64,000 nt of DNA, taken from positions 4,870,539-4,934,538 of the forward strand of contig OY987248.1 in the NCBI GenBank assembly GCA_963920765.1, read 5' to 3'. This document shows, piece after piece, positions 29,255 to 63,200 of the stretch. The notes below the pieces were generated by a model. It saw only the letters and a list, made by a program, of their open reading frames with translations. It did no database searches and was not told the origin of the DNA. A program made the translations under genes and the position numbers. Origin of the DNA: Ulota crispa. Taxonomy: Eukaryota; Streptophyta; Bryopsida; Orthotrichales; Orthotrichaceae. Numbering within the stretch: the first letter of the stretch is position 1; every line of letters starts with the position of its first letter.

Positions 29255-32200
29255 GGTCCAGAGCATGGTTCGGACGAGAGCGAGGATGATGCAAGGCCAG
29301 AGGCGAACGCCGACTTCCCAGACGAGGCCATCCCCACGAGCTCCGGGTACCTGCCCATCAGCGCCGAGAGCAAGTCGAGGCTGTTCTACGTCTTTTACGA
29401 GGCCACCAACAATGTGCGCAGGCTGGCGGACACGCCCATCGTGCTATGGCTCAACGGCGGTCCCGGCTGCTCCAGCCTTATCGGCTGTTTCTACGAGCTG
29501 GGCCCCTGGAAAGTCAATGAGAAGCTCCGGCTCACTCCCAATGACGGCGCCTGGAATCGCAGGCAACTTAGCATTTCCCCCTCCTCCATAGCTCCCATTT
29601 CAGTCGTCACATAATAGTTGTAGACACCACATTTGTTAAATTGGGAAAAATGATACATTTTGAGACTTCTGAATATTGCATTCTAGAAAGTATTTTGGTG
29701 ATTAAGAGTGAATTCTATGATGATTTCTTCAAGATCTTACATCAATAATGTTGTAGGATCTTGAAGGAATTATCATCATAAAACTCACTTGCAGTTGCCA
29801 AAGTACTCTTACAAATGCAAAATTCAGAAGTCCCAAAATGTATCCCCAGTAGCACATTTTCTGCATACATTTTTCTTTGCTTATGAACCGGCCCGAGTGA
29901 GACATCAGTTAAGCATTGCAAGATTAACGTGAATAGGCACTGTGGGTGGGGATAGTTCCGAGATCTATTGTTTACAAAGTTCGTTTGAAAAGTTCTTACA
30001 GTGGTCTAGACGTTCTGAAAGCCGTAACTGTGCGGAGGAGCTTTCACGTGTTGTTGTGACGAGGTCGGGGTGGATCATGGGGGGATGGGAGGATGCAGGA
30101 GCGGGTTGCTGTTTATCGACCAACCCATCGGCGTGGGCTTCAGCATAGCGGCGTACACGGCAGAGATTCCCGCGGACGAGTACACGGTGGCGGCGCATCT
30201 GTTCTACGCGCTCCAGAGCTGGCTGCTGCAGAATCCGGAGTTCCGGAAGCGGCCCATCTTCGTGAGCGGGGAGAGCTATGCCGGGAAGTATGTGCCGGCG
30301 CTGGCGTACTACATGCTGTCTCACAACTCCTCCTCCACGCTCGGCAAGTTTGCGCAGTTTGCAGGCATGGCCGTTGGGAATGGCCTCACGGATCCTCGCA
30401 TTCAGGTACCGTCCCACGCTATCCCTTGACATCATCGCTCACTCAAACAAAGTCAGAAGAGTTACTTACTCTCGAAACGCATTACGGTAGGAAAAGCGAG
30501 CCTGTTCTCCAATGACCAAACCTTAATGAACCCACATGACACTTGGAAAATGTTCATCACCCACACCGTAATACTCCATACTAGGACGTTTTGGAATCAG
30601 TGCTTAGCGTTACAAAATTTACGAAAGGAATGGGACCTCTAATAAATTTTTGCATACCTGCTCTCATTCTCGGAATCCACCACAGTTAAGAGGATTTTTT
30701 ATGTCTGTGCGTCAAACAGTCATGGTTGTCACGGAACCTTTGTTTGGGTTTGGATAAACTTACCTACAACTTAGGTGGGTTGTACTAGAACTATCATTGC
30801 TTACAAAGCGTCCTTTAGATTAAATATGGTCGTTTCAATGGCCTAATAATAAATACTAAGTCATGGTAAAGGATGATCTTTTCATTATGTGTTTAGAATT
30901 CCATAACTTAAAATAGTTGAATCATGTTCAATAATATTCAAGCAAGAGCTCTAAGGAGACACCAAAACCTCCATACAGCCCATTCTTAGTAAAGGTGACA
31001 ACCAAGCATTAGATATCAAAAACATAGCTAGACCTTATAATCAATCTTATCTATTAGCGGTATTGGGACATTGAGCACGATTGAACCAGACCCACTCATA
31101 CATACATAGAGATTATGTACATTGATGTGAAAATAAAGCCTCGTTCTTACTTTGGAAACTACATCCATTGCCGCTTGTGTCCAAGCATGTTAGTTTGCAC
31201 AACAAAAATCTACTCTCACTTTTTGTAGTAATGATATACATATGCTCTCCATATCCAATTTTTAGTTTCATTCCATGAAAGCTAGGACATTGAAATGTCC
31301 TTAAAACCATGTAGTTGTAAACACTTTTGATTGCTGGTGCGGTGCTTTTCCTTTTTCTGACATCAAGGGCTGTTTTGCCAACAGATTGCGCAATCCGCGG
31401 ACATTGCATTTTACCTGGGCTTGATTGACGAGACGCAGAGTATTGTAGTTCGGGAACTCTCTCGAGAATTGGTTGTACTTATTGATCAGTGAGGCTTTTG
31501 TTGCACTTTTTTCATTCCACTTCTTGCTTGCATGTATGTTACCTTCTCAAATGCCTTGCTCTCTCCAAAGTGTCGGTTGCCTTCTCAATGCATTTCAAGT
31601 ACAATAACCTGGACGGGCTTTGTTTGCCTGATTTTCTTCTCTTCCCCCATGGATTTTAGAGCGCAATGGTTGGAAGCGAATCTGAAGAATCTTGAGTTGG
31701 TTATGTACATTTACAAAGCGAGTGGCGTGGCGACCTTGCTTGACATCCGTCGCAGTTGCAGATACCATCACCGGGAGGTAAGTGGATTTCAGTGCATCTC
31801 TCTTCTTTTTTGATATTTAGTCTCGGGAATTAGGGTTTTATGAAAACAGAAGGGTCCAGTGTGTGATCTAATTCAGGGATTCTTGCTTGTAACCCTAGAA
31901 TGCGCACATCAGTTTTCTTCAAGGCTGTGTGTTTGAGGACTATGCATTATGCACGACGTTGAGAAACTTATGGTGTGTTACCGGGTGTGCACCTCTGAAG
32001 GATGGAGTGGAGTTTTTAGCTCCTTTTTTGAATAGCGTTTCCACGAGAGCTGCTCTGAAAGTGGAGAAGGGGTCCTCAGCTTGGGTGAGCAACCGTAATA
32101 CTGTGAAGAAGGCGATGGCTGCCGTGAGTTCTCTTTCTTATGCCCCATACAGTAATCCTCTGTCTCACTGTTCTTGCATGGAATGCCCTGGAACAAAACA

Positions 32201-39273: not shown

Positions 39274-42200
39274 ATGATGGGGTCCATGGTGGGCTCATCG
39301 GCGGCGTCATCGCAAGCAGGAGACTCGCCGCCCGCGAGGCGCGCCCACGCGCACCACGCGCGACAGATGAGCTCGTTCAGCAACGCGGGGCGGCCGCCGT
39401 CCGTGCAGGGGTCTGTGCGACCCTCGACGTCCCGCAGCATCCGCAGCCTTCGCCCTGGCACCCCAGGTAAGGTAGAAGCACCTAAATAAGACACAGCATT
39501 CGTTTACGGATGAGCCTGTATCTGATCCATATCTGATCCATCAGATACAACGTCATATTCATTAAATTGGAACTAAACGCTCATTTTGGGATTTCTACAA
39601 ATTTAAGGTGATCACCTTAAACTGACACGTGCCCTCACTTGAGAGGAGAAATTTGTGAGAGACAAAATCTTAGTAGCTTAAATTGTTTAAGATAATTTTT
39701 TGGGTTTAAGGTGCAGTGCAATTTGGGAATCTTGTTTTCCCAATTTAATGAATATGACGTATTACCCAAATCAGACATGCAAGTCAGTTAAAGCTATTAC
39801 CATATCTGAGTATTGGAACATAAATTGTGTAGGTGACAGCATGTGGCATGCTCTTTCTGATGTCGCATTTGCATTTCAAATACAAGCAATTCAATGAGGG
39901 TCTAGTGTTCACAATAGGTGTGTTTAAGGAGTTACCTTCAACAATTTGAAGTTTATTCATATGATCTTGAAAAATTCCAAAAACAAATTTTCAGCACTCT
40001 TTGCTAGATTCCTAACCCTTCTCCAATCTCAGAATCTCAATGCACACTCCTGGTGAATTGTTTTAACAAAAGTGTCACATTTATGTGCTTCTACCTTACT
40101 CCCTCCCTCATACAATCCCCAACCATGATGAGCAATCCATCAAGCATTGCGTAACTGTATGTGGCTTTCCTTCCCAGATTGCCATTTTAGGGTTTCTCCT
40201 CACAAGGTCCAGACCTTTTTCTATTGTCGTCCTTGAAACGCGTTATTCATTAAATTGGGAAAAAGCTTACATGTTGGGACTTTTCAATTTTTCAGTTTTT
40301 AGAGTTTTTAGGTGATTTAGAGTGAATATTTTGATGATTTCTTCAAAACCTACTAACATCAATGATGAAACACCTCACAAGAATTATCAAAAAGTTCACT
40401 TCAAATTACCAAAATATTCTCACAAATGAAAATTTTAGTTTTCCCAAAATACATTTTGGGACAGTGCTTTTTCCCATTTTAATGAATAACGCGTTTTGAG
40501 GAAAAAAATACTACTGCAAGTCTTGAAACTAGAGAGACAATTTTTTTCTCCAAAAAACTCAAAAGTGTTATTCCCGAACATCATCTATCACCATGAACAA
40601 TGTAAGGTAAGGTACAACAACTTGCAAAATTACAGAATTTGTTGAATTGAGAGGATAGTAAGAGTTCGAAACCTAAAAATTTGACCACCCTAATCACCAC
40701 CCTTTGAAGTAGCCTATCATTATCCAAAAAAATTACAGAGCTGAAGAAAATTTCTTTCTTACCCGGGTTGAACTGTCAAAGTTAAGACTTTTGTGTAGTT
40801 CAAATGAGTTGTCAGCAGCATCAAGCCTCAAACATGTCGTGTTATTTTAAACTGCAAGGATTGGTCTTTTCCAAGTCAAAACTGAAAAGATTGTTTATTT
40901 AAATGGCAATATTTCATTAGAGTGATGCAAAGAGTCTGTGGACCCTAGAAGTGAGCAAAACAGAAGTGAGCAAAATAAAACGCTAAGATTTTGGGAGGTG
41001 GGAAGGAATGTTGAAGTTGAAATTGTAACAATAATGCATGTTTTGTAAAACTGCGTACGCATCTTGCACTTCAAAACGTTGCTGCTAGACCCCTCTTCTA
41101 TTCTCATGTTGCTTGCTCATTTGATATGACGCCGGAACATCAACATTTTAATGAATTTGAGTTTTTGACCTTAATCCTTTGTGCCCTTCCAATCTTGAAC
41201 CCAGTTTGCACTCCGTGACAGACTCACAAACAAGTAAAAGCAGACAGAGGGAATAGCTACCATAAGCTCATGAACGCAACGAACTAAACAGCCTGTACTT
41301 AGATTATGCTTGCACATTTCTCTTATAAAATGATGCAACCTTTGAGACTTGGCAAAAGTCTCAAGTGGACAAATATGCAGTGCTAGAGTGCGAAAGCATC
41401 CGGGATCCGGAGCAATCATGTCAAAGCTTAAAACTAACGTCCACTGGGCAATGCAATGCTGCCATTGCCTGATGGATAATGATGCTTTTGCTGTTGTACA
41501 CGCTGTGAGTGTGAAGGGGGATCGCTTGGGCTCAACCCTGATGTGAAGGTGAACAGCAGACCGCTCACTCAACAAGGCCTGGTGACGTCGCGCTCCTCTT
41601 GCCAAGGTGCCTCCATACATTCCTCAGCTCCTCCCTCCCCTGCCTTCTTCTTCTCCTTCTCCTTCTCTGTTTCTCTCTCTTCTGCCTTCCGACGTGCTTG
41701 TTTCCACTACAAGGGAACAACGTCAATTTGGACATTTTTGGTCAAATTGAACTTGTTAATTTGAACATTTTTTGTCAATTTGGACACATTTAGTGAATTT
41801 GAAGTTTTGAACGTATTAATTTTGGATACTTTATCTTGTACACCTAATAGTGCATTTAGGTTGTCCCATACCAATCTCTCAACATTTTGCACTATTTAAA
41901 TACTTACTGCACCTACAGTAATTTTCAGCAATAATTACTGCAACAAAAACCGTTTACTGGCTTTGGCAACAACAACATAGTTGCAAGATGACAAATCAAC
42001 TAAGCTCACGTGGTAAACCATGTGTTATCTTAGTATCTAAACAATTTTAGGCACCTTCAAATGGCCAAGCCATGAATCATGAGGTAACTTTCCATGGTAA
42101 GGCAACCTAATTGTTAAGGCAACCTAAATGCACTATATGGTGTAGAATTTTGAAGCAGTGAGATGTAGAAGCGGAGCTTGCTTGAGCTGTGCTTTAAATT

Positions 42201-45200
42201 CCATGCATGGTGTGTGTGGACAGGGCCGGGTCGGCAGGTGCAGGACAAGTCGTACTTCGTGTCCAAGCTCAGGACCCGGAAGCAGGAGCTGCAGGCAGAA
42301 CTGGACGTCATGCATGATGAGATTGAGAAACTGCAGAAACGAGAACCTGCCAACGCTCTTCTGGAGCACAAGTAACAACTGTCTTTCTTCAATAATTACG
42401 CTCAAATTCACCATAGTACTCAATAATAATGTGCGAATTGTTCAAGTCCTCAACCCACTACTTAACCCTTAAAGGACGGATGGATCACTATGGCCTGCCC
42501 TATTTGTAGCATTCTATAGTGTTTTGCACATGGGCACCAGTAGTATTGCTTCAAAAAGCTGGAAAAGTCAACAGTACATGGTGCCCTCATGAAAATTGCA
42601 AGAAGTGCAGCTTGGGAGCTAACACTATGTTTCTGAATCTTATCATAATTTGAGTTACAAAAAAAATGAATGCATCTCAAGAGGTACTTTTTTGTCTTCC
42701 ATGATGGACCATGTATTTATGATCACTTCTGAAAAAGATTCAGATGAAAAACAACTTTTTTTTGAATCACAAGATATTTTATCAGAACTGGAGGACATTT
42801 TTCGTCCTCCTCAACGTTTAGGGGTTAATGTCCACCATTGTTTGTATTTTTTATATTCAAGAAATCAAATTTTAGCTTACTTATTCATAGACTCACAAGA
42901 AAATTGTGCACATTGTCATCCTTAGACCCTATAGCGTCAATTTTGTTGAATTGGCAACTGTGCCATTACCTTTGGCGTTGTTTGCACGGCCCAAACCTAA
43001 AATCTATATTGGTCCTAGTTTGTGGATTGACATAACTTTTAGTGTACAAATACTCCAAATGAAACAAAATTGTCATTATATACAATGATTTGGTTTCAAT
43101 TGGATTTGGTTGCTAATAGTTTCAAAATGTGGATGCTGTCCCAGTTAATTGAAAATTTTGTTCAGTAACCACAATCTAACAAAAAAAGAGTTCGTTTTGG
43201 AAGCTCACAATGCATAATTGTCAAAACATATTTTTAGCTTTCAATAACAGGGTGTCTGTCTTGTTTATTTTATTAATCTCTTCAAACAATTTGCTTCTTT
43301 ATTTGGAGTTGCTTCGATAATTCAATTCATCTCTTGTTCATCTGAAAGTGACCACTTTTTACTTTACTATTACGATTTTGAGCAAGAGGGTTGCTTTGCA
43401 ATGCTTTGGTGCATGCAAAAGCAACCACCTTCTCAAAATTTGAGAAGAAACTATGCAAACAACTTTTAGAATAGACAAGTTCATCAGGTGTCAAACTTTG
43501 AAATCACCTTTTTACTGCGAATGTCCATATTTTTTATATAGTTAAGAGGAGGTCTAATAATGCATATGGGCACTTACTCGTGTAATTGCCATCTTTCAAA
43601 AGATTGTTAATGGAACTCATTGAGCCCTTTCTACTGCCACTAACACTGCCTCCTGGGAGGAACAAAATGGGTTTTTAAGCTACATTCTTAGATCTATTCA
43701 GAATTTGACTTGTGGAAGTTCATTTTTAAGATGTGTACCAGACAAGGCAAATTCTAAGGATATACATGAAAAGCGCAATTTTAGTTCATTAGGGGGTCCT
43801 TAGAGATGGTTTCATGGAGAGCCTAGTGTAATAAGCTAAAAGGGTTTCATCTAATGTGTATTTTGTTTTGGATGCTCCCTATAGACAAAAGGGTCTGAAT
43901 GAGGAGGTTATGGCGTTGAAAGCACAACTAGGGGACTACAATATGGTCATGGAGAAGGTCAGTGCTTCTCAGCTTAACACGGGTGTGAATGTTTGGGGGC
44001 TTAGAAGGCGTCAATAATAGAAGGAAATTTTGAAAAACATCCATATATTTTGTCTTATTCTGAATAATATCCTCATAGTTTTCAAAATCGCAAAAGTACC
44101 TTTGTAGAGGTTATAAAAAGCATCTATAGTGCAGTGATACATTGAACTGCATGCAAGCTCAAGGCAATGCTTCTATGTCCAATTTTGCAAACATTTTGTT
44201 TGTTGAAGGCAAATCTTTCAGTTGTGAAAATTAATATGCACACATGCAAAAATATGTGAGTACTAGAAAACATATTTATATCAAAAATGAGACAATAGTT
44301 TAACAATGAAGTACAAAAACAGAAGAGAGGAATTTAAATCATGTATGGGTGGTCGCGGGGTGATTATACGTTTTTTGTTGGGCACGATATAATTGTACCA
44401 CAATACTATGAAACCCCTAACTGGTATTTTTGCAAACTTGAAAACTACAAGGGTCTTTTTCTGTTTACGGCAGAATATAGGGATGTTTCTCAAATTTTCC
44501 CATAACAGAATGGGATTAGCAAATACCTTTAACTCCTCTAAAGTCCACCTGACAGATTGCGGGAAAATTCAGGTTACATGTTACACTTTTTTCGGCTAAA
44601 AAAAAGTTAAAAAATGGTAGATGTTAGAAGGTTGTGTTCGTAAAGTACGGTTTCAAAGGCATCTGCACGTTGAACCTCATATTCAGTAAAATGGGAGTTT
44701 TCTATTGAAATGAGAGGTAATGTAAAGGAAAGTTGATGAAAGATTTTATGTCAATCCAACTCAATTTGAGCTAGATTGACAAAAAAAATTCAAATTTTAC
44801 CTAAAATTAGGAGGTTTTACTGCAATTTAGGTCGACTCGACCTAAATTGCAATAAAACCTTTCAAAACTACCTTGAAATTGAAAAGTTTTATGTCTCCTT
44901 TGGTTATTTTGGGAGGTGCCCAATCTTCCATTTTATTGAATATGAGGTTGTTGAGGAGGCAACTGCATCAACATCCATAAAAACATTCTTGAAGGAACCA
45001 CTTTTCAACACCCACTTGGTGATCTCACAAAAGTGATGTTTCTTGTTTGGATGTTTCACGTTTGGATGTTTCATGTTTGGATGTTTCATGTTTGGATGTT
45101 TCATGTTTGGATGTTTCATGTTTGGATGTTTCATGTTGTATGTTTCATGTTTGTAGTAGACTTCCATGAAGTGGGCTTGAATGCTAAAGTCTCGTGGTAG

Positions 45201-48200
45201 TGATCAGGTGGCGGCAGGGATTGGCTTGGATGAGCTCAAAGAACAACTCAAGGTTGCCAAAGACAAAAATGAGATTGCAAAGGAGAAAGTTGATCAATTG
45301 TTTAGCAAGCGTACTTGGTGCGTGCAAATCACTCTTGAAGAAATTTGTGTTTTTTTTTACAATCTCTTTTGGATGTCCACTAGTTTTTATGTTAACAGTG
45401 ATATTAAACATAACATTAAGATGTTAGTTTTAACATCAATTGTAACATAAGAACAAGTGAATGTCCAAAAAATTTGTCAAAAAAGATGAGTTTCTTCTAA
45501 AGTCATCCTTGGCTCTTAAAAGTGTTTTGTTTGTTGAATTGTGTAAAAAGAGTTTTGTTTGTTAAAATGGCACAATTTGGTTGAACACAAGATTAAGCGT
45601 TAAGTGTCATAGCCTTCCATGAATGCTGCAAGTTGCTTGCATTTTTGGATTATGCATAACTTGTCTTTTGCATTGTACATAACTCATTTATTTACATCAC
45701 ACATAATCTATTTTTTGGATCACTCATAACTTATTTTTTGGAGCACACATAACTTAGTATGGATCCATGATCAAAGAAAAAGCTGGATGCAAATAATCAT
45801 GTTAAATTACCAGTTTGTTATTGTACAGGCTTGACCAATTATCTAGAACATGACGATTGTGCATTCTATTGCCCATTCTATTGTAGAGTCCCTCACTTTG
45901 TTGAAGGCACTAGCAGTGTACCAAATCATGTGAGGTTTATTGAATTGACACTTTTGAATGAGGAATTTACCACAAGAACCGGCTTGACCATTAAAGGGCT
46001 AGAAAGAAAACCCACGTGAGTTGTGTGGAGACAAGTTAATTATTGAGTTCAATAAGCTGTATCGTACTTTATCCTCATTCCTCATTTGTGAGTTGTGGAG
46101 AGGATCTTTGTGGTCCAAGGACAAATGCAACTTTGCAATCTTCAACAAGGGTTATGGCACATAAGTAACACTATCAAAATTGTGCCAAATTACCAAAAAA
46201 TACTATGCAACTAATTATGTTGTCCTTTCATTGTGAGTCCTTCCCATCAAAAGTCTCTATTGCCATGGCAACCCCCTTTTGAAGAAGTCAACTCCTCACC
46301 ACCTCTAAATATCACAAAACATGATTTTAGTAGAAGTCACTAGCGCATTTTTTTTGGGCGAAAAACAACCAATTGGCAACAAAGACAACTAATGAAAGTT
46401 GTTCCCTCCATTTATTGCCCAATCACGTGCGCTCTTTTCAAATCTAGCAAAAATAGATTCATAAAAAAAAGCCCTAAAACTCACATTGGAGTATTGGACT
46501 TAATGACTCTAACACCTTGCGCAAGGTAAAGATGCTTTGTTTTTTATTGAACAAGGGTAAAAGGAAGTACTTGCCCCTATTTTGGAGTTGTCATTTTATC
46601 CCCTTCAAAGGTTTTAACACTCAATTTGAATTTTTGAAACCGATTTTGAATTTAAAATTCCCAAATTCAATCTCAAAAATGGTAAGTTTCTAAGCTCTTA
46701 CAATTTTGGCATTTGGTACAGCAAAGTTATCTGCTCTAGCCCCAAAGACAAGGTGTAAGAGCAATGGATTTTAGCATGAGATTTAGTGTGCTCCTACAAA
46801 ATATAAATGAGATCATCTCTAGTGTTGCTTTGCAAGGGTAGGACACACTTTAACCCCTAAGCGCCCCAGCGACAAGATCTTGTCATTGGGGACCACCACT
46901 TGATCTCACTTTTTCTCTTTATTTGTACAGTGAAAACAATCGTGGCTGGTCCCCATCAGCAGAGAAGGTAGTCCTTTCTCAAATTCTGAGGTCACTTTTT
47001 CTAAATGTTATTTTCAAAGCTCTGGTGGCCATTAAACCCCCCATTTTCTCCTAAACCCTAAAACAACTCCGGGTGCTCAGGGGTTAAGCATGGATGATAA
47101 GTCCTTTGAGCCCCTCAAAATACTCTCATGACACTCCATCCTAGTGTGTCAAACAATGGGTTTTCAAAACACTATTCTTCCTAAGTTTAATGAGCTTCAT
47201 CTTTTATTTCCCTTAATGAATGATCAAATGACTATGTATGAGCACATTTGAAGAGCAAGAGTGAAATACAAAAATATGAGGACTTTTCAAAAATAGATGT
47301 AATTTCTCAATGCTTCAAATTGGCAAATAAGGTTGGAGATGCTATTCACCAAAGGGATGCCTGAGCCTTACCCTCCAAATTCATAATTTGTAAACAATTA
47401 TATAATCTGGATTTTGGCAGCATAGAAGAAAGCTACAAAGCAGCTGAGCAGAAAATACAATTTCTGGAAGCTGAAATGGAGCGACAAGTAAATGACCTCG
47501 TATGTAATTATGCCTCCCACGTCATTATTATTGCATAACTCCAAAAAAAAGTTAATATATAATCTGCTGTTTTTGTCCTTGGCCAAGTGCATTTTGTGTT
47601 GAAATTGTTTTGCAGATGTAGATTCTTGGAAAATATCTGAAATAACTTAACTCCTAAACATCAAGGAGGGTATGGGCAAAACGTAGATGCATTATAAAAT
47701 GATACTTTTCTAACTTTGATGAATTTTGCTTCAAAAGAGAAAACAAGAATCATGGTATTTGGTAATTATCCATATAGTCAAACATTTATAAAAAAATGGA
47801 TTTTTATTTAATGAATTTAGAAGCATTTATCATTTGATATTCACCAAAATTATAAATTTTATTCATAGATTTTAAAATTCAATATGACTTGTTAAAAACA
47901 AACATTCTATCATAAATTTCAAAAATGCAATCTTTTCAAAGGAGAGAACATCATTAGTTTCCCAATTTAGTAAATTTTATAAAATTAGCAAATATTGAAG
48001 TGTTTGTCTTTGAAAAATTCTCCTTGATGGAGTTTAACTTGGATTGACATGATTCAAGTTGGGTTGGAAAGTAGACTTTATTTTATTTTTTATTTTTTAA
48101 AATTTTTTTTCATCTTAGGCAGCCCGTGAAAAATGGGCAACAACAAGAAAATGGTCAATTGGGCGCTTAGGGGTTAATTAGTCCTTTTTATTAGTTTTAC

Positions 48201-51200
48201 ACTTCATACCAATTTTAGCCTTGATGACTCCACTAGTAGGCCCAAAACAAACGGTCCTTACCAACACAAACAAGCTCTAATCAACACAACTCTGTTCAAA
48301 AGTGTCCAAATCATAACATCCAAATCAACAAAATAATATTGTTTGTTTCTAGCAAAGCTCACAAGAGAGTATGATTAAGGTAGACACACTCAAACATGAG
48401 TGTTTAAGGGTTTGGAGTACCACAAGATCTTGGAAAATTGAGGAAAAAAAAATGTGGGATTAGCCTTTCAACAAGCTATCATGGAATGTCATTTTTGTCT
48501 AGAAAATTACTATAAAATATTCTACATTAAAGGGCAAAGGTTACAACTCATAAGACCCTAAAAGCAACAAGAACACCATATTAGGTCATCTAGGCAAAAG
48601 GGTACATTTTGGGACTTTTAGGTTCTAAGTGATCACCTAGAACCAAGCTCAAGGTTTTTTTTTGGGTACACGTGCCCTCTCCTGAGAGGACGAATTTGTG
48701 AGGGAAAAAATCTTAGTGGCTCACACTAAATGTGATACCTTTGAATTTGGTTTAAGGTAACTTTTTGGGTTTAAGGTGAAGTACAAAATGATACCTCCCT
48801 TTTTCCCAAATTACCTAGTATGGTGTTCAAGCAACTACAGACTAACCTTGAAATTGCTTGAATGTTTTCCTATACATGTATTTGACGGTACCAATCCCAA
48901 CCTTCCCAAACTAAGCTCCTAAATTAACATGTGACAAAATTTGCTTGTGCAAGTGGCATTCAATGCTCCACTTTGGACTGAAGAGTGTGTGAAAAACACC
49001 TCCGATGTAAAGTAGAGGTGGTCGGTGATGGGTATGTTTACCTTACCTCAGAAGCTCTAACAATGAAGTGTTGGTTCTACAGGGGCCTGAAATCAAAGCT
49101 CAGTATCTCGAGCTCCAGAACGAAGTTCGCACGCTTGCTGCAGAAGAGGAGCGACTGGAGTCAGAGCTTCAAGATGTCACCGTCAATGCCCAGTCTTTAG
49201 AGCAGGTTGGTTGCTTCCATCAAACCCGCCATTTCAACTTCTGAATCCTGAACTCCCAAACCCTAAACACCTCAATCCAATAACAACTGGCAAATGAAAA
49301 ACACAATCCTCACCAAGTATAACCCTCTACCAGCTTTTTTCATGCCCAGAAAACAGTGGCATTTGTACAGAAACTTCTAGGAGTGGAAAGCGTTTTTAAG
49401 GGGGCGGTTCACATTATGTTTCACGTCCCAAGTCCCGCTAAAATTTGAGAACCTCGTTGGTGTAAAGTCAAAAGTTGGAATTTGGTGCTTCACACTACAT
49501 CCCAAATCCCATGTACTGGTTTCTTACATTGCAGCACTTTTTGGAAGTGTTGGGGCCAAAGAAGGTGGAACTTTAGTCAAGGTTTGAGTTGACCATTTTG
49601 CTAAACCCAATTTTCAACACAAGTTTCACCAATAATTTTGCGTAAAATGTTCCTAACATACTTTAGTACTCTCTCTTACTTTTAATAACCCAACAAAACT
49701 AAGATTTGATATTGCAATGAGACTTGCAAAGATGGGACGTGGGATGTAGTGTGAAGGGCCCTTAAATATAAGGACACGATGTCCATGTTCAAGGGCAAAG
49801 CCCAAGGGGCACGCGCCCGCACACTTAGGTGTGAATGTCTTTTAGGGCAGTTGGAGTCACGTCTGCCCGCACACTTAAAAATGTCTAAACATGACTATGA
49901 ATCTATTGCAAATCTACCAGTGAAATTTTATTTTGTTATTTTTTTTTTCAAACTTTCTATTCTTTGTCTTGCACAACTTTGCAGCACTAGAATGCATTTC
50001 ATAAGAGTACAATGCTGTTGCAAACAAAATGTTCAGTACAAGGAGCCAAGTTTTCAAATCAGCTTTTTGTTTGGCTGGTTGTTTGTAGGAGCTGGCCTCA
50101 GCGCCAATAGAGAAAAAAAGAGCAGTTTTGCTGACAGAGCAGTTGCTGATTGCTGAAGCAGAATTAAGCAGACTCAAGGCTGAAGAACCACCTACCCTAC
50201 AACTTTCTCCAGAGGAAGCCAGAGGAGCTATGCTGCTCAAGGTTCCCCTTTTTATTTATTTATTTATGTAAATACTAGTAAAGGCACCCGTCGGTCTGAC
50301 AATAAGTATTACAATTTCAAGCCCAATCATGCAAAATATTTACCCCGCAAGAAAACAAATCTTGCTTTTTATCTACACACTACTTTGTCCATGTAGTAAA
50401 ACATTTGTCTTTGTGTACAACACATTCTCTTGCAACAAAGTATTTTTTTTCTATACCCATAGAGTTTTTTTCCCACGCAATAAAAGGAACGTCATTGTTT
50501 TCTCACGCTATAAAATGTTATTTATTTTTTGCCTAAATTTTTTTTTTATACATGTAGTAATTATTCACGAAGTTTTTATATATTTTTGTTTTTTACCCAC
50601 GCAGTTTCGTTACAATTTTTGTACTTTATCCACACAAGTTTTTACTTGTATTTTTTTTACCCATACATTTTTTTCCCACTCAAGTTTTACCTATGCAAAT
50701 TTCTTACCCAAGCAAGTACATTTACCCACATGGTAAAAATATTGTGGTTAAAAGATCGCCAAATTGGTAAATTGTATTCTGTTATTATATACAAATTTTT
50801 CTCACGCAAGTCTTACTCACACAGATGAATACCCACATTGTGATTATTCACACAAATTTTTATATATAATTTTTTACCCACACAATTTTGTTTTGTCCAC
50901 ACATTTTTTTCACATACAAATTTTACCCATACATTTTTTTCTCACGCAAGTTTTTAGCCACGTACGCTTATTTACCCACGTGATAAAATGATCGCAATAA
51001 AAGGATCGCCATAGTAGTAAGTCTTATTTATCTACACATTTTTTTCACATACAAATTTTTACTCATACATTTTGTTCTCAAGTAAGATTTTACCTATACA
51101 AATTTTCACATACGCAATTTTTACCCACAAAGGCTTATTTACCCACGGGGTGAAATGATTGCAATAAAAGCTTTGCCAAAAGGTAAAACTAAATTTTGTT

Positions 51201-54200
51201 ATATATATAGATAATAAAAGTATTCAAATATGTATTTATATTCATTATACCTAAATTTGATGGATGCTCTTGAAGTTTGCAATACTTGTACATATGCTCT
51301 TGGTTTTTAAAAAATTGGACAAATGCTCTTAGATAAAAATTTTCAAGCTATTGTTCTATTGTGCGCTCCATTCCCTTCATGACCAACATTGAAGCAAGGT
51401 GTGCAACAAAATTGGAAAGAAATAACACACCCACAAAGGGAGAAGGAAGTGGTGTGCACAACAATCCAAATCCTTGAAAATTATGGTCCAAGGATATTTG
51501 TGCAATTTCTGAAAAACTAGGGGCATCTATACAAACATCACAAACTTTAGGAGTATTCATCAAAAATTTCCTTGATCATGTCATTGTATGCAAAACACCA
51601 GGTTTACCACAAATTCTTTTTTGAAGAACATGTTTTTAAATCATCAAAAACGTATTTTCTTTCAAATAAGAAGCTTTTCAAAATTGAAATTTCATTGATG
51701 ACTTTTCATTGGGTTTCAGCGAATATCCCAAGTGGTGGATCCAATATTATGAAAAACATAAATTATTTGTCTAGGTTACAACTTTATCAAGCAATTACTT
51801 TTGCCTCATTGAAATAAAAGTTAGAGGGATTTTGAGATTTTTACAATAAAAAGTAAAGAATGGAATTGTTAGTAGGAGAGAGGCTATAGATTTGACAAGC
51901 ATTAATTCCATTTTGTGGAAATTAGTAAAATATAATGGTAACATTCCACCTTGTACCGGTACAATATTAATTTTAATATAGTACGAACACTACATGACGT
52001 AATAGAGAAAATCAGTGTAACAGAGGAAACTATGCCTTATTTCAACACCTTATTCATAACAATGTAACATGGTGTATGAAAAACATCATAAAGGATATTT
52101 TTTGTAGGGAAAAGAAAGGTTGATCACAAGTTGTAACAACTTTCAAGTGCATTATAATTCATGAAAAGGTATAAATGTCATGAAATTATTCAATGAAAAA
52201 AAAAAATGATAGTTAATTCACAGTAAATAACCAAATCCATGATCCACATTGTCAAATTTGACCACTCTTTAAAGCAGTGTTACGATCAAATATGACATTT
52301 TAACAAAAACAAGGTTGTATATGAGCAAACACATATTTATTTTTTTGGATTTATTCAGTGAAATCCCCAGACTTTACCATAACATCAGAAATAACCCTTG
52401 TAATATGGTAAATGACTTCCATTCAATTCCGCAAGTATCTAAGTTATTTTGTGTCAAGAAGTCAGATTGTTAGTAACATTGATTTTTTCTTTAATTTTTT
52501 CTTTTATCAGTTAGGTAAATTCAATTGTCATAGAAACACTCATCATCATGCAATATGTCACCTTTAAGTAAGTAAGGATTAAGTCCATATGTAATGATCC
52601 AGAGTCCCAGACACTACTTTGGTTTGCAAAACAGTAATAGATACTTGCAAATATCTGAAAATACTCGTAAAACATAGAGATATCTCAAGTCAAAAGTCAT
52701 GCAAAACTTTGGAAAAACCATATGCAAAATATTGAAAGGTCAATCTTTCATGTTTAGAAATGTTCACAATTACATGGATAGTCCATTAATAGTTAAGTGT
52801 ATCATTAGTGTTCACAATTTTGTTTGAAAAGTTATATAAGTAATGAAAGAACTTGTAAAGGCCCTCATGGCTATTATATTAGGAGTCACGGCCTTGGACC
52901 CAGCCATAGGAGGTTTAACCCTTAAACGTTGAGGCGAATGTATTTTGTCCAATAAAGAACAAAAAACACTCTACAAGATGGAAAAATAGCTATTTTTCAA
53001 CTTATTTTTTTTAGAAATGACCACAAAAACATGGTCTATCATGAAAGGCAACAATAAATCTCACTATATACACTTATATTTTTAGGTAGTTCAAAATATG
53101 AGAAGATTCAAAAACATTGTGTTAGGTCCCATACTACTCTTCTTGCAATTTTCATGAGATTAGCATACACTATTGAATATTACAACTTTTAGAAACAGTA
53201 TTATAATGGATGAGCACCGGCCATGCCACTACAGAGAATTGTAGAACCTCTGTGGACCGTGACCAGCCCGACGTTTAGGCATTAATTGTAGAAAAACAGT
53301 GAGGTACATGGATGCGGCAAAGTGTCAATATATGCAAGTAAGTAAGAGTTAAAAATTAAATTCATCTCCTAATGTTTCTTTTTTCTTTATTCTTTTGGTT
53401 CTTTATACTTGCAGATACGGCAAGATAATGCAGAAATAGCCAAGGCCGAGGAGAAAATTAAGCAGGTGGGGGAGGAGGTCAGAGAGTATGAAGAAAAAAT
53501 TGCTGAGGCTGACAAATCTCTGGCTGAGCTCAAAGGTCTTACCCACAGCCCCAGCCCCCTTTAAGGTAGAAGGCTCGAAAACCGTCCAGGCTCGAAAATC
53601 GCTCACCCTCTAAATTGTTCTCTGTACACGTATTTTTTCATAGATTTGTATAATGTACAGCGGGTGTACATTTGAGGAGGTGCACCATTTTAGAGTCCTA
53701 TGACCTTTCTACTTATAAATTTCACAACTAATTCTACAAATCTTCAAAAAATATGAAACAACTTGGGTTAGATGTCAATTTTTCTTGTCTTTTAAGGAAA
53801 TTTTACTGAAATTTATTTTAAGAAGTTCTACCTCTCCAAAATTCAGTTTTAGCTCTTAGATGGTCAATTTTTGAGCCTCTTACCTTATACCTCGTGTTTA
53901 GTAATTTCCACACGGGATTCTATATTTTCAAGCTAATAAGTAACAAGGTAGAAGCGCCCAAATGCAACACTAGCCGTTCAGGGACATCTAAAATTAAACC
54001 TAAAGTACACACTCTTGCACCCAAACTAGACACGCAAGTTAACATAAGAGAACAAAAATTATGTAAGTGACGGTTTGTGATTAGGTGTGACATGGTCTTT
54101 TTGTTGTCATGACATGGCCTTTCTGGTGTTGCTTTTTTGGGATCTAGTGCCTACAATAGGTAAGTCTAGGGAGTTGTCTTCAACAATTCATGATTAATTC

Positions 54201-57200
54201 ATATGATCTCAAAAAATTCCAAAAACAATTTTCCTTGCATCTGTACCCATTTCCTAATAAGCCCATGCCATTAGATTCTCAAAAGACCCTCTCAATTACC
54301 ACATCTAAGGTAAGTGTTGCATTTGGATGCTTCTACCTTATAGTCTTTGCTTTGATAAATTTTGAGCGAGTCTTTGTGGACTAGGGATTTCAAAACTTAG
54401 AAATGTTAAAACTTGTCACAGAAAAAGCTTAGCTAAAAGAAGAGAGTACAATTTTTTTTGCACATTCATTAGTAGAAAATTGTGTTAGAATTCACTAAAA
54501 ATGTAAGGTAGTTTATGTTAAACTCCATGTTTCCAACGCACAATTTTGTTGAACAACACAAAATTTTGTATTGAAAACATGAAACTCCACATAAACTACC
54601 TTACTTTTCTAATGAATTCTAACATAGTTTTCTTCTAGTGATTTTTTCTTTCCGCAAAATTTTGTAATGTGATTTTTTGTTAAACCATAAAAAACAAAGT
54701 TTTTTTTGTTGTATTATACAATATTCGTTCCCAAGATATTTCAAAACTTAGCGGAGGTTAAAACTTGTTAGGGAAAAACGTACCAAAGGGAAGATTGTAA
54801 CTACGTTGATCTCCATGGATCCTCTAGGCATAATGTTGTTCTTACAATGGGCAGAAGGAGTTAACAATGGCGTAAACGTTACTTGAACAAAATCATTTGC
54901 ATTTTTGGTTGTTACTTATACTTGTGAACATAATCATTGAAATTGCAAAGTGATGTCATTCCTACTAGCACAAAGGACACGTGGCAACATTTTCTTTAGA
55001 CAAGGTTCATGAAAGCTAAGGGCCTCATGCACAGACATTCTCACATTTGTGCCATTGGTTACTTGAGTTTCACCCTCTTTTCTAATGGTTTAAAGGTGAG
55101 AATGCCCTTGCATGGAGCCCATACTTTATACAAAAAAATTGGACTTTTTTCTACTTGTACCCGGCAAAGATGTTAAGTTTTTTTTGTGTGCTTTTTTTTT
55201 GTTCTTTTGTGTTGGAATTCCCTAATTTTGGCAAGAAAATAGGTGGAAGGGCAGAAAAGTTTCTTGAAATGCAACTAAAGGAGAAAAAGATGCAAGTCTT
55301 CATAGATAACTTTGATGCAATGAAACATGAACACCAAGGCACAGCCAAGCTTACTCAACAACGCATTGTCCAATTGCTGAAAGAAACAAGCCAAGTAAAT
55401 CAAATTTGAGCATGCATATTTTTTATGATGAATATAATGCTTTTGGGTGGTTTTGTGTTTTGAAATGAAACTTTCATCCATCCATTATAGCATGTACATT
55501 TTTTCAAAACAACCTTCTCTTTGGTGACCAATTGATAAAAGAAAGGTTTTGATAGATACCCCTTAAATTTGCAATTTATGTACAAATGTCCTTGGTTTTT
55601 CAAAAATTGCACAAAGACACTTGACACACTTTCATAACCTAGGAACTACACTTTCCCACAATAGTCAATTGAATAAAGGTCATTAGTTATGTCTTAACCC
55701 CTAAAGGACCGTTGTCCCTTTGGGGGACAGGTGGGAGTTTGGGCATGTACCTTTGGATAAGCTCTTTGTGTGATTTTCTGAAATTTTTATTGAAGGTGGG
55801 GAATTCAAAGATCTCGGTGGGCATCTAATTTTTTCCTCATTCCGACAATTATTGAAGAAGTTACACAAGAATTTCTGAAAATTTGGGGAAGACTGCCCCC
55901 TAGGCAGCCCAAATACTTCTTTAAAAATTAATTTTTTTTAAAATTAAAATTTGAAAGTGGTTCTTTAGATATTTTAATAGGTGAGAAGTTTTGAATCATT
56001 CAATTTCAATCAATGAGATGAAAGTTATGAGGATTTTTTGTTTGTGGGCAGTTTTACATTCTCTACTCTAAAATAAACTTTGAAGTCCTTTATTTTACTC
56101 AATTTTCAATATTTTGGAAAAATAATTAAACCGAAGGAAGTAGATTGTTTATCAAAACATTATCACTATTGGGATTAGCATTTTTCATTTCCATAATTAA
56201 ATTCTTAACAATTTAGTGATTTGACTCATTCTCTACTTCTTTTTACTTACTATTTTTTCCCATGTGTTGTGTAGTTCCAATTGATTTGAAATTTCTCCAA
56301 CACATAGCTAACTTGATCTCCTACATGGGAAAAATAAAGCGCAAAGTTGCATAGAGCAACTTTTTTGCTATAAGAGTGATCAAAGGCTTCTAAAATTTTG
56401 GGGCAACATGAAAAAAAACGTTCTTTTCACTTTAGATGTAAATATCTCACTCTCGTCCATCTGGAATGACTTGATTTTTTTTCCACAAGTACCTAATTTA
56501 GTCTAGAGCAAGATCTTACGGTTGGATTTTCCAAATTTAAAAAATAATTTATCTTCTTACTAACCCCCCAAAAGTGGCAGTTTTGAGTGATTTTCACTGA
56601 AAAAATGGCTTGGTCCTTTAGGGGTTAAACAAGGAAGGATGTTTATAGGAATTGAAAGGTTCTTGTCCAAAAGTAAGTGACATGCACATTTGACAACTAT
56701 GGATAAAGATAATTTTGCAATTATCAAAGTAAGTCAAGAATATTTATGCAATTTTTGAAAAACCAAGAGCACCTATACAAATACAGCAAATTTAAGGGCT
56801 ATCCATCAAGTTTTCCCTTAATATAAAATCAAGATAAGGAAATTGATTAAAAAATAGAAACAAGAATCTCATAAAGAGTAGAAGGCACAAAGGGATAGTA
56901 TGTACATTACATTAGTTTGGGGCGTTTATAGGGAGATTATGTACTACATAAATGATTGAATTGTGGAGCCGCAAGCTAGTTGTGTTGTACAAAAACCTCT
57001 TTAGTAAACTAGACCTGTCCAAAATCATCCAATCTGCAAGGTCTATGACTCTGTCAATCAAAAAGCAAAGAAAAAAAATTGGATTATGACTCTATTACCA
57101 TCATCCCTCATTTTAACTGTACAATACAGTGCCATGTTGCAATGAAAGTGACAAGGAAGGGTTGTGGAGAAGTTGATAAAGAAATTCTACATTCATGGTT

Positions 57201-60200
57201 CCATGGGTTTTACAGGACCAAGCAAGCATAAAAGAAGGCGATGTTGACCCCCTAAAGTCTGAAGAATTAGCAAACAATATTGATGACCTTTTGATAGGTG
57301 AGTTGTTCTAAGTACCATGTATGATAGTAACTTGATGATAAAAGAGAATGTAGCATTTGGCATATTGAATCATGAACGTCATGTCATTGAAATTACATGA
57401 TGGGTCAATTTGACCTAGCAAACGCAACTCCACACTTCCTTCCCCCTCTTTCATGTGAGCAAAGCTACAAGTCCTATGGGTTGGGTTTCTATAAGCTAGT
57501 ATTGCAATTTGTTACTGGATACATTCATATAAAAATTTCTCTTTGATTATAAGTCCAAATGCACGTCAAATTGCTAAATATAGATATTGCAAATACATTA
57601 AGTTTATTTTGGCTCAAAGCTGAGCAGACGACCACATTGCAATGTTTAGAGTGAGTTCCTAAATTAAAAATGCAAAGGCTTAAAACACCATATTTGTTAA
57701 AATGGGAAAAATGGAGGTACCATTTTGTACTCCACCTTAAACCCAAAAAGTTACCTTAAACCAGATTTGAAGGTACCAAATTTAGTTTGAGCCACTAAGA
57801 TTTTTTCCCTCGCAAAATTCCTCCTCTCTAGTGAGGGCCCAAGAACCAAAAAAACCCAGTGCGCACTTGGTTTTAGTGGCCACCTAAAACTTTCAAAAGT
57901 CCCCAAATGTACTGTTTTTCCCAATTTAACGAATATGGTGTTTTAATCACTTTTCATTCAAGGATACAAGTTTGCATTGTACTCTTTGACCTTCTCAAAT
58001 CACTCAACTTCCAAATGTTCTTTATATCAAGAGTAATTAACTAAAATGTCAACCTAGTTGCAATATCAGATACAATGATTAAAAAAATTTTAGGACTTAT
58101 TCAAAAATGGTTTTTGGATGTGTTATACTTAGGTTTGCAAACCGTAAAGTTTCCATAATAGGTGAGTTGGCAAAATTATTTTTATTACAAAATGAGATTT
58201 TGTTAAATGAAACATTGTGATCATCTATGATACACTATATTGCTTGTAAAGAATGCATCAACCTTTAGGAGCTAAGAAATACCAAAAAGGTCAATGAACA
58301 TTATATGGAATTGTTTCATTGGATGGATTCAAGTTTGAACTTTTTGGTTGACCAAGGGACTCACATTAATTTGAAAATCTTCAAAATGAACCTCGAGGGG
58401 GTTGACATAAAATGTTCCAGATTTGGACTTGGCACTATGATTTCTTTGGATGACATCAATTAAGTCCATTGGAAATGATGATATTGATAGTGGCGGAAGA
58501 GCGGGAGCAAGAATTAAACCAATTGAAGGAAATAGAAGAAAAGAATTTGAAGGAATTGGCATGTAATGAAGAAAAGGTTGCAGCTTTGAGAGAAGAGATT
58601 GCCAAATTTAGCCACCTTGATGAATTGCAATCTCAATGGGATTCCAAGTGCATGGTTAGAATCCCTTCAAAATTCTTGTTTGACCTTGACTTTGTCTAAA
58701 GATTTTGTGACAAAAATGCCATTGTATACCCACTCCACCAAGAAAAGTCTAAAATATTTCAAGGTCAATTTTAAGCCACGTGTGTCTATAACTACAATAT
58801 AATAAGGTTGATAAAGTTTTCATGAATAAATCTGCATGCATGCATGATTCTATCTAGATTTTTCTTTATCAACATGAATTCTAGGCAAGGGATACCAATG
58901 AATGAACCAAAAAAATCCATGCCACCTTTTTTGGGTATTATGCACCAAAGCCATAGGCATTAGCCTCACAAGCATATTAGTGAATATACTTTTTGCAAAT
59001 GCAATTGAAATAATTATTATTTTTATATTAAATCTCTACCAAATGATTTTACTAAATTGGTACATTTTTCCTTACAATTGTAGTGTTTATCATCGTACTT
59101 TACCAATTTAACTAATTAAAGTAAGGGCTTTCTAGGTGCACCTTCAACTCTTATGTGAGGACTCATAGATTGTGTTATCACTACAAAGAAACCGTGGTCA
59201 AATCTACAAAAAGTTGACAAAGATTGTGACTTATTCTGTAGTACATTGTAGATTACGTCACAATCTTTGTCAACTTTTTGTAAATTCAACCATGGTTTCC
59301 TATATCATCTTGGACGATAGTAGTTTTTTTTCTCATAACCTCAAAGGAATACAGATTTAAGTTATCAGTGGTCATAGTGCCAATTGGTTATGACCAAATC
59401 TAAAGGTAGTGAAGTGTTGAATTTAGTAAGGGTTCTAGAACTTGTGACCTCCATTACAAGATCTCACTATTTGTTTCTTTCCAATTTGAGCTTTGCATGT
59501 TTCTAAACCCATAAATCTTATCTTATAAATACCATCCCCAAATACATTTTTTCTATTGCTTGGGGAGATCACTCCTTGCAATTTTATGATATACACGTAA
59601 GTTAAGAGGGTATTTGACGTAGGCCTATTGATTTAAAATATTGAATTTTAGATGATCATACTTATATATAAGAAGCTACACATGACATATTTCTAGTACC
59701 CTTTGTTTTTTTATAAATTGTTCATTTGGTTTTTAAGTGGAGCTACCTTATATACAAAAAAAAATTGTTCAATTTTATCTTGTCTCCACTATTTTCAAAA
59801 AAAGGCTTTTGATTTATTACATATATGTATACAGTATGCACCACGAAACCAATAATAAGCATATAAATTAACGGGTCATTGTCCAAGTGAAAAAATTATT
59901 ACCAAATTTTAAATATTTCTTGATTCAATGCCATGTATTTAAAACAATCTAACTTGGAGAGCAACAAGCAACACTATAAAATTTCACAACCCCTATTTGT
60001 CAAGGCTAATTAATTATTAAAAACTCCTACTACCTAATGTTTTACATACCCTAATTTATATATACTAAAATATGTAGTATTTCATGAACCCTATAGTAGC
60101 TTTACATATTATATAATTTTTTGTGTTTTTTGAATTAAATGGACCTTATCTTTTAACTCACGTAGTTTCTAAAACGTGGGCTAGTGATCTCCCCAAGCTC

Positions 60201-63200
60201 TATTGCCCTTGAAAATTGCCTCCTCTCAAATAAAAGCTCACACTTACTTTTGTCTCCTAATATAAGGTATGAAGCCATTTTGCAATATGTTGACTAAAAC
60301 TTTGCCCTTGACATAACTACCAATGTAGAGGTGCTTGTTTTTTTATCTATGAGATATGTATTTTGCCATATTTCAACTAGATCTAGAATTCTAGACTATG
60401 AAGACAAACATGCACTACACAATTACTGTGACAACTGGGAGACGTTCTAGTGTTATGCACATTCTCTAAAACTAAATTCTTCCAACACAAACTAGACACA
60501 CACTAAGAGATCTCTCCACTCAATTTAAAAGAAACATAGACATTAAAGCTCCCAACTTTTCTTCAATATGAGTTTTTATTTTTGAACTTCTTATTGAATG
60601 TGTAAAGTAAGGGCCCCACATAAGGGCATTCTCATGTTTAAGCCATTAGGAACAAGAGTAGAGCCCAAGTAATCAATGGCACAAACACAAGGTTGCCCGT
60701 GGAGTGAGACACTTAGCCTTTGGAAATGTCACTTGAACAAAATATTAATTACTATGAGTCCTTTCTATTAGTAAAAGTGACATTATGGAGCATGACACCA
60801 CTTTGTAGTTTTTATGATTATGTTCACAATTATAAGGACAACCAAAAATGCAAAGGATATTTAGTTCAAACAACATTTACAATAAAATCAAATGTGAAAA
60901 CGGCATAAGGTATGTACACCCATAAGCGTCAAACTAAAGGTTTTAAACATGATGTGTATCAATAAACAACTAGCAAATTATAGGATCTTGTTAGGAACAA
61001 AAAAATAACAAATTTGCACTTTTGAATGTATTATTTGGATATCGTGAGAATAAGTTGTGAATTTTTAAAGAGCAAACTGCCATTGCACCCATAACCACTT
61101 TCAAGATTTCATGTTCACATGTTATATATTATTGTCATTACATCTTCAGAGGTGACAGTTATGGGAACATTGACGCTTATGGGTGTACATACCTTAGATA
61201 CAGCTCACATTGGTACCATGCATATGAAAGCTTTGGAATTGTTGTGAGGCAGAAACTAGAAGCTCAGAAGTCCAGCCTTGATGAGAACAGAAAGCTCCTG
61301 CAAGCGAAGCTGAGAGAGCAGGAGGCCAAAGCCAAGTCCATCCAAGGAGTCCTCCATGGAAATGAAGTGCATGCCAAACTTGAGGAGCTGAAACTGAAGC
61401 TCTCCGACCTCCAGCAATCCGGACTCAAATTGCAAGAAGGTAATAACTACAAGGGAACACGGTCAAATTTGGATTTTTTTTTTTTTTTTGGTCACTCAAG
61501 TTGGACATATTTTTGTCACAGATTTTGTCAATTCAAACATATTATCTAGTCAATGTGGATGTGTCAATTTGGACACAATTTCTTGTAGTATAATTTGGGG
61601 AATGCTATACTACTTGAGCGGGGATTTGTGAGCTACAAGTTGTGAGCCTAAATTTTTTTACACATTTAGTCAACGTGGATGTGTCAATTTGGACACCATT
61701 TCTTGTAGTATAATTTGGGGAATGCTACACTATGTGAGCCGGGATTTGTGAGCTATGAGTTGTGAGCCTATTTATTTTTGTCAAAAAAATGTATTTCATC
61801 TATAACTGGGTACATAGAGTCCTATAATTGTGTATTTTAAATTTTCATCTCTTGAAAAACTTGCTATTGTATTAATTTTTTCATTGATATGAACTCAAAA
61901 TTGTCCTCGATCAGAAAAATCTTAGCTCATTGCTCATGGTCCACCATTTTATGCCCACAAAATAATATTGTCTCTTTACAATTTTTACTTTTATTGTGTT
62001 TTACAAGCATGTCAAAAAAATTTAAAAATTAAAATTAAATGTTAAAAAAAGATTAAAAAATTTTAAATTCTTATAATTATCCTAAACGCATGGTGAAAAG
62101 AGGTATTAATTTTACGTCTTCCCAATAAAGGGTGTGAACCCACTGATATGGCCCTTGCAAACTAAGGTTTGAGCTGAACTCATCATCTCCTTTTTATAGT
62201 GGTGGTTTGGGCTTGGTCCCAAATTTAGAATTAGTCCAACAAAAATTCATATTTGGAAGGCCATCTTCTCATTTTTTGAGAAAGAAAAAGAGGTTTTAGA
62301 CCGTAGATTATGAGTACTTTTAGGAAATTTTTAATAAAACTTCTCATTTTTGAGAAGGTCTTTTTGAAACTGACTTTTTAATATGCTACTTTTGACCCCA
62401 CAAATGTGTTGTACGGCAGTCTACAACTTAACTTCGTTCACCCCCATAATGTCGCAAAATTGAAACCCATTATTGACCATTGTGCAGAAGCTAATATCTT
62501 TATCTGGTCATGAGAAATGCATACACTTTCCTAATTTTGGAATGTTGTGCACGGCATGGGCAATTGTCAACATTGATTAGAGGAATCTGAATTTGTAATG
62601 TGCAATTGGTTAATTTTGGAGTGAACAAAGTTAAGTTGTATGCCGCGGTACAAGGGTTGCTTTTGGGTAAGAGTGAGGGTCTTCTTAGAGCTCAAAAATG
62701 TTTCAATTATTGCCTCTTCCAAGGCCTCTTCTTATTGAGTGTTCAATATGAATCACAAGTTCCATACACTAAGATTCACATCTAAGATTTTGCATATGAG
62801 GGGGTAGTCGCACCTTCTCAAAATCATTCTCAAACTTATTCTCAATCTTCATAGAATGGCGTATTGGCAAGCCGGCAACGTTTGACAGAAGCTCCATTCT
62901 CCATCTTTGGTGAGATGTTTTTCTTCTTGTTTGTGGGTGGAGAATGGGTTGGAGAATGGGTTGGAGAAGTTTTGCTCACAAACCATTTACCACATATCAT
63001 CTTGTTTTCATCCCACTATTTCCAATTTGCCATTGTTTTTTTGTTTATAGCTCTTTGCGTTTCTGACTATAGCAATTGCTCTTCTTACTTTTCACCATTC
63101 TTCATTCTCCATTCTTCATTGCCCATTTTGGGGTGTCATACCTTCATGGAGAAGTGCTCCCACTAGCTCCTATTTTCACTCAACCAATTCTCAATCTTCA

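Follow-up and report, generated by a model that had tools for sequence, protein, structure and literature searches.

TA-targeting MITEs with a Stowaway-like anatomy are short, carry terminal inverted repeats, duplicate the TA and occur in hundreds of copies, and the element described here, which lies at the start of intron 1 of an IFT74 gene in Ulota crispa, resembles them in anatomy. In terms of splicing, two described systems stand closest. The maize Ds and Ds1 elements have ends that supply splice donors, according to the part of the published account drawn on here, so that, as at IFT74, the end of a DNA transposon gives donor sequence within a host gene (PMC5432752). In the same part of that account, however, the distance between a Ds1 donor and the terminus is 12, 22 or 33 bp, and element sequence enters the mRNA (PMC5432752), whereas the IFT74 MITE would give only donor positions +4 to +6 and the mRNA is probably unchanged. 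The second system is that of the introners, which the relevant sections of a survey describe as non-autonomous DNA elements, some with terminal inverted repeats and target duplications, whose splice sites are shared between element and target (PMC9860276). Introners as described there are whole introns at many loci (PMC9860276), whereas the IFT74 MITE touches one edge of a longer and probably older intron. Those sections of the survey report no introners in land plants (PMC9860276).

Our analysis covered a stretch of 64,000 nucleotides, referred to as the window, together with searches of the genome. We put at roughly four in five the probability that the MITE hit an existing donor of IFT74 intron 1 and rebuilt that donor in place, leaving the mRNA unchanged. 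On this reading, the case illustrates how even a position as sensitive as a splice donor can take up an insertion silently, when target and element end jointly rebuild the splice signal.

The IFT74 gene and the element beside exon 1

The IFT74 gene, a flagellar gene, was modelled with 14 exons between 39274 and 63867 whose phases agree (Table 1), and joining 39466 to 41517 gives a single open frame of 1740 nt and 579 residues; exon edges and acceptors were picked by us from frame and phase. Against PDB, the 579-residue product matched the IFT74 chain 8bd7_G with a whole-sequence E of 7.4e-38 over two stretches (65-426 and 390-574) and the IFT74 chain 6ian_A with an E of 4.9e-17, homology that runs along the protein and places it in IFT74. 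Pfam returned TBCA_PH only, below its cut-off (22 bits vs 27.8). Exon 1 has no homology support, as the 8bd7 alignment starts at residue 65, which is the exon 1-2 junction; this exon and the start are therefore modelled from open frame, composition and phase. As far as 39466, the translation of exon 1 runs ...SIRSLRPGTP, and the exon holds four in-frame ATGs, the first at 39274 and the others at 39277, 39286 and 39367. A total of 1785 nt had been given for the gene in the initial annotation, which none of the joins reproduces, the model giving 1740 nt as above, 1752 nt when 39471 is joined to 41510 and 1713 nt when 39471 is joined to 41549.

Table 1. Features of the IFT74 locus (window positions; a slash marks a splice cut)
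Feature	Position	Strand	Basis
MITE of TA-targeting family	39470-40096	.	inverted repeats, alignment of copies, genome searches
Left TA of target duplication	39468-39469	.	
Right TA of target duplication	40097-40098	.	
Second, different element inside the MITE	39549-39762	.	perfect inverted repeats and 3-bp duplication TAC
Worn copy of the MITE family, in IFT74 intron 10	53944-54340	.	end matches at 53944 and 54320-54340
Most likely intron 1 donor, CAG/GTAAGG	39467-39472	+	in phase with 41516/41517; strongest U1 duplex of 24 sites
Donor of the initial annotation, AAG/GTAGAA, within the element	39472-39477	+	phase 0; in phase with 41510 and 41549
7-nt stretch	41510-41516	+	exonic only with alternative acceptor GCTGTGAG/TGT
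IFT74 exon 1	39274-39466	+	open frame, GC 0.72; ends in phase 1 (CCA G)
IFT74 exon 2	41517-41606	+	in-phase acceptor GTGTGAAG/GGGGATCG
IFT74 exon 3	42224-42371	+	frame and phase
IFT74 exon 4	43885-43957	+	frame and phase
IFT74 exon 5	45208-45317	+	frame and phase
IFT74 exon 6	47421-47487	+	frame and phase
IFT74 exon 7	49083-49205	+	frame and phase
IFT74 exon 8	49851-49919	+	frame and phase
IFT74 exon 9	50092-50241	+	frame and phase
IFT74 exon 10	53415-53535	+	frame and phase
IFT74 exon 11	55243-55394	+	frame and phase
IFT74 exon 12	58502-58647	+	frame and phase
IFT74 exon 13	61249-61439	+	frame and phase
IFT74 exon 14	63761-63867	+	frame and phase

After CCCCAG at the end of exon 1, the bases GTAAGGTAGAAGC run into an inverted-repeat element that directly abuts the exon; its opposite end, GCTTCTACCTTA, stops at 40098 and is directly followed by CTCC, with no AG. 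The terminal arms are 28 nt long and 89% complementary, as in a MITE, and these arms together with a TA at both edges bear out the earlier description of a TA-flanked MITE starting at 39470. Including both TAs, the element measures 631 bp with a nested insert and 417 bp after its removal, and it is 86-88% identical to 8 other aligned copies. Its 21-base end has three matches in the window, namely the two ends of this MITE and one other copy, against a mean of 0 in 100 shuffles. The MITE is a genuine element, and its repeat is not due to chance. The nested element, which does not appear in the initial annotation, is 214 bp long with 21-nt perfect inverted repeats (39550-39570 and 39740-39760), and a single TAC occupies its position in all 8 other aligned MITE copies, while the window copy has two. 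A further inverted-repeat element lies in intron 1 at 40222-40510, with 45-nt arms that are 87% complementary, and one of these arms contains 20 nt that are exactly complementary to a segment of the end of the nested element.

Short length and many copies, both expected of a MITE, were also seen across the genome. The 21-base end with at most 2 mismatches gave 520 matches vs 1 for the reversed pattern, and a 13-base end, TAAGGTAGAAGCA, gave 1061 exact matches vs 5 in the control; sampled copies were 375-476 bp long, only lengths of 330-480 having been accepted. Among sampled copies, 65 of the 72 rows showed a TA on each side, with flanks that vary, in a list whose search pattern itself held TA with up to 4 substitutions permitted and in which most copies appear in both orientations. 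The same list includes loci chosen for AGG, so that base counts taken from it carry a sampling bias. One copy (L051) sits inside a repeat, and the element-free form of its site, which would read ...CAAGG-TA-GAGC... with a single TA, was found at 368 genome places (at most 3 mismatches; control 0) using a pattern drawn from that copy's own flanks. The presence of TA at both edges of copies and of a single TA in unoccupied repeat sites provides evidence that the family very probably duplicates TA on insertion, which would make the element-free IFT74 site CAG/GTACTC. The flanks of L055 are similar to those of L051, and the right-hand flank is also found at L050. In a separate comparison of 122 flanks, 18 were similar to some other flank, which means that the sampled insertions are not all independent of one another. 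The repeat found at 368 places surrounds CAAGGTAGAGCRACCYGCACCC, and its AAGGTAG resembles the end of the MITE family.

Donor choice at the exon 1-2 junction

Three sites at the edge of exon 1 had been singled out from the sequence, GTAAGG at 39467, GTAGAA at 39472 and, once the element is removed and the flanks rejoined, CCAG/GTACTC, and all three are present. GTAAGG is a composite in which G comes from the host, TA from the target and AGG (+4 to +6) from the element. It had been passed over on the grounds that no acceptor in the right phase could be found; however, the exon 2 acceptor at 41516/41517 is in phase with it. The donor after 39466 leaves one base and this acceptor adds two (GG GGA TCG), so that the join reads RPGTPG-GSLGLNPDVKVNSRPLTQQGL and retains both GGSLGLNPDVKV and GGSLGLNPDVKVNSRPLTQQGL. 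The acceptor itself is an AAG, with another AG 7 nt upstream. Among the listed acceptors, 41517 alone fits the phase of 39466, where the rejoined site would also be cut. The existence of this acceptor makes GTAAGG the likely donor of intron 1, rather than GTAGAA, with the same nucleotide and phase that the rejoined site has. The initial annotation was right that a transposon end overlaps the intron 1 donor. The takeover that it proposed, by a donor lying entirely within the element, rested on the missed acceptor; a single such omission can make a probably silent insertion look like donor takeover. The rejoined sequence offers a second GT, TGC/GTAACT, which overlaps the next in-frame stop and leaves phase 2, so that GTACTC has a competitor as the earlier donor; it would pair with exon starts at 41557 or 41560 and lose the GGSLGLNPDVK stretch.

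Predicted donor strength was assessed by U1 duplex energy and by a matrix built from 21 other donors in the window, 12 from IFT74, 5 from a gene that we take to encode an adenylate kinase and 4 from a presumed serine carboxypeptidase gene, both names and exon edges being read from translations. The U1 energies were -11.5 kcal/mol for GTAAGG, -7.1 for GTACTC and -6.5 for GTAGAA, with CAG/GTAAGG the best of 24 sites compared. On the 21-donor matrix GTAAGG scored 7.81, fourth of 24, and GTACTC and GTAGAA 6.75 each, whereas a matrix of the 12 IFT74 donors gave GTAGAA 6.41, GTACTC 5.9 and GTAAGG 5.8 and so does not favour GTAAGG. The sampled donors of the window look relaxed, with G at +5 in 7 of 21, and with such degenerate donors motif strength is weak evidence. 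We therefore set aside the ranking of donor motifs as proof, the 21 donors being degenerate and the IFT74 matrix slightly favouring GTAGAA. Two of the 21 are GC donors, CAG/GCAACT and GAG/GCAAGT (29563 and 26225).

In the history we favour, a TA-targeting MITE would have entered the TA of an existing intron 1 donor, CAG/GTACTC, a form that resembles CAG/GTACCG at 30406 in a neighbouring gene model. The element end AGG beside the duplicated TA would then have yielded the junction CAG/GTAAGG, with CTC swapped for AGG and nothing else altered, giving a donor whose nucleotide and phase are those of the old one and whose predicted U1 pairing is better. The spliceosome would cut after CAG (39466) and join to 41517, so that the whole MITE would leave with the intron and both mRNA and protein would stay as they were. 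We infer that GTAAGG is in use, that GTACTC was the earlier donor and that the intron predates the element. Because 41517 is the only listed acceptor in phase with 39466, retaining that donor would need no further change. The case would then be neat but ordinary, with the gene probably reading on as before, and chance should suffice for one donor insertion among hundreds of copies.

The full takeover envisaged originally, in which AAG/GTAGAA inside the element is the donor and GTAAG from target and element is coding (completing G and adding K), is unlikely. It was correctly described as phase 0 and as joining in frame, which among the listed acceptors holds for the donor after 39471 only with exon starts at 41510 (RPGTPGKCEGGSLG...) and 41549 (RPGTPGKVNSRPL...). 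GTAGAA serves as a donor at 25896 (ACG/GTAGAA) in the modelled adenylate kinase gene, ranks above GTAAGG on the IFT74 matrix and, on the matrix of 21 donors, scores the same as the rejoined GTACTC site. Yet if the earlier donor was GTACTC, in phase 1 with 41517, both donor and acceptor must shift, and the start at 41549 costs the GGSLGLNPDVK stretch; the site 5 nt upstream also exceeds GTAGAA in U1 energy and on the 21-donor matrix. Very unlikely, by our estimate, is a misassignment of exon 1 or of its end, with the true first exon or donor elsewhere and the MITE just non-coding or intronic. The lack of homology support and the four in-frame ATGs of exon 1 are consistent with such an error, but the exon 2 frame, read back from 41517, meets a stop before any ATG and so needs an upstream exon, and exon 1 is GC-rich, open and joined in phase.

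Other GTAAGG ends of the family

When the base before the duplicated TA is G, the element end reads GTAAGG, and the corresponding pattern, GTAAGGTAGAAGCA (the 13-base end preceded by G), has 269 exact genome matches vs 1 in the control. These ends, together with the terminal inverted repeats and target duplication, invite the idea of an introner, an element that itself made the intron. At IFT74 such an origin is extremely improbable: CTCC instead of AG comes after the right end, and only one intron edge lies at the element, the acceptor (41516) standing 1.4 kb past the element end (40096), so that the intron does not look like a product of the element. The same 269 ends are the reason to consider that the family acts as a portable donor upgrader, remaking any G-TA donor it hits as GTAAGG, so that insertions there would be tolerated or even favoured and several genes would carry such donors, a reading that we regard as unlikely.

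We scored 66 distinct GTAAGGTAGAAGCA ends of the 269, drawn from 26 places with AGGTAAGGTAGAAGCA and 40 further regions, and IFT74 was the sole recognised donor among them, in a weak test that would miss short unconserved exons. Upstream GC was computed for all 66, 22 rows were listed, and Pfam was run on 5 peptides from 4 places. The introner reading was set aside, since the IFT74 acceptor lies far outside the element and the sampled copies did not show the pattern. Upstream GC reached at least 0.60 at three of the 66 ends, IFT74, an APS kinase frame (L057) and L040, the last lying upstream of what we take, from its sequence, to be a putative LRR receptor kinase gene on the opposite strand. 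The Pfam peptides came from L040 (two frames), L044, L060 and L058; only L058 passed the curated cut-off (APS_kinase, E 1.7e-66), and the L044 peptide gave Colicin_V at E 0.088, below cut-off. At L066 (C97:118173-118940), the 3' part of rbcL, a gene whose translation here looks streptophyte, continues in a single open frame into unrelated coding sequence, and that contig is possibly chimeric or foreign. Two near-identical APS kinase frames of this same genome, at L057 (C8:16447611) and L058 (C8:16490556), run into members of the MITE family, and there TA plus the element's first base makes a TAA stop.
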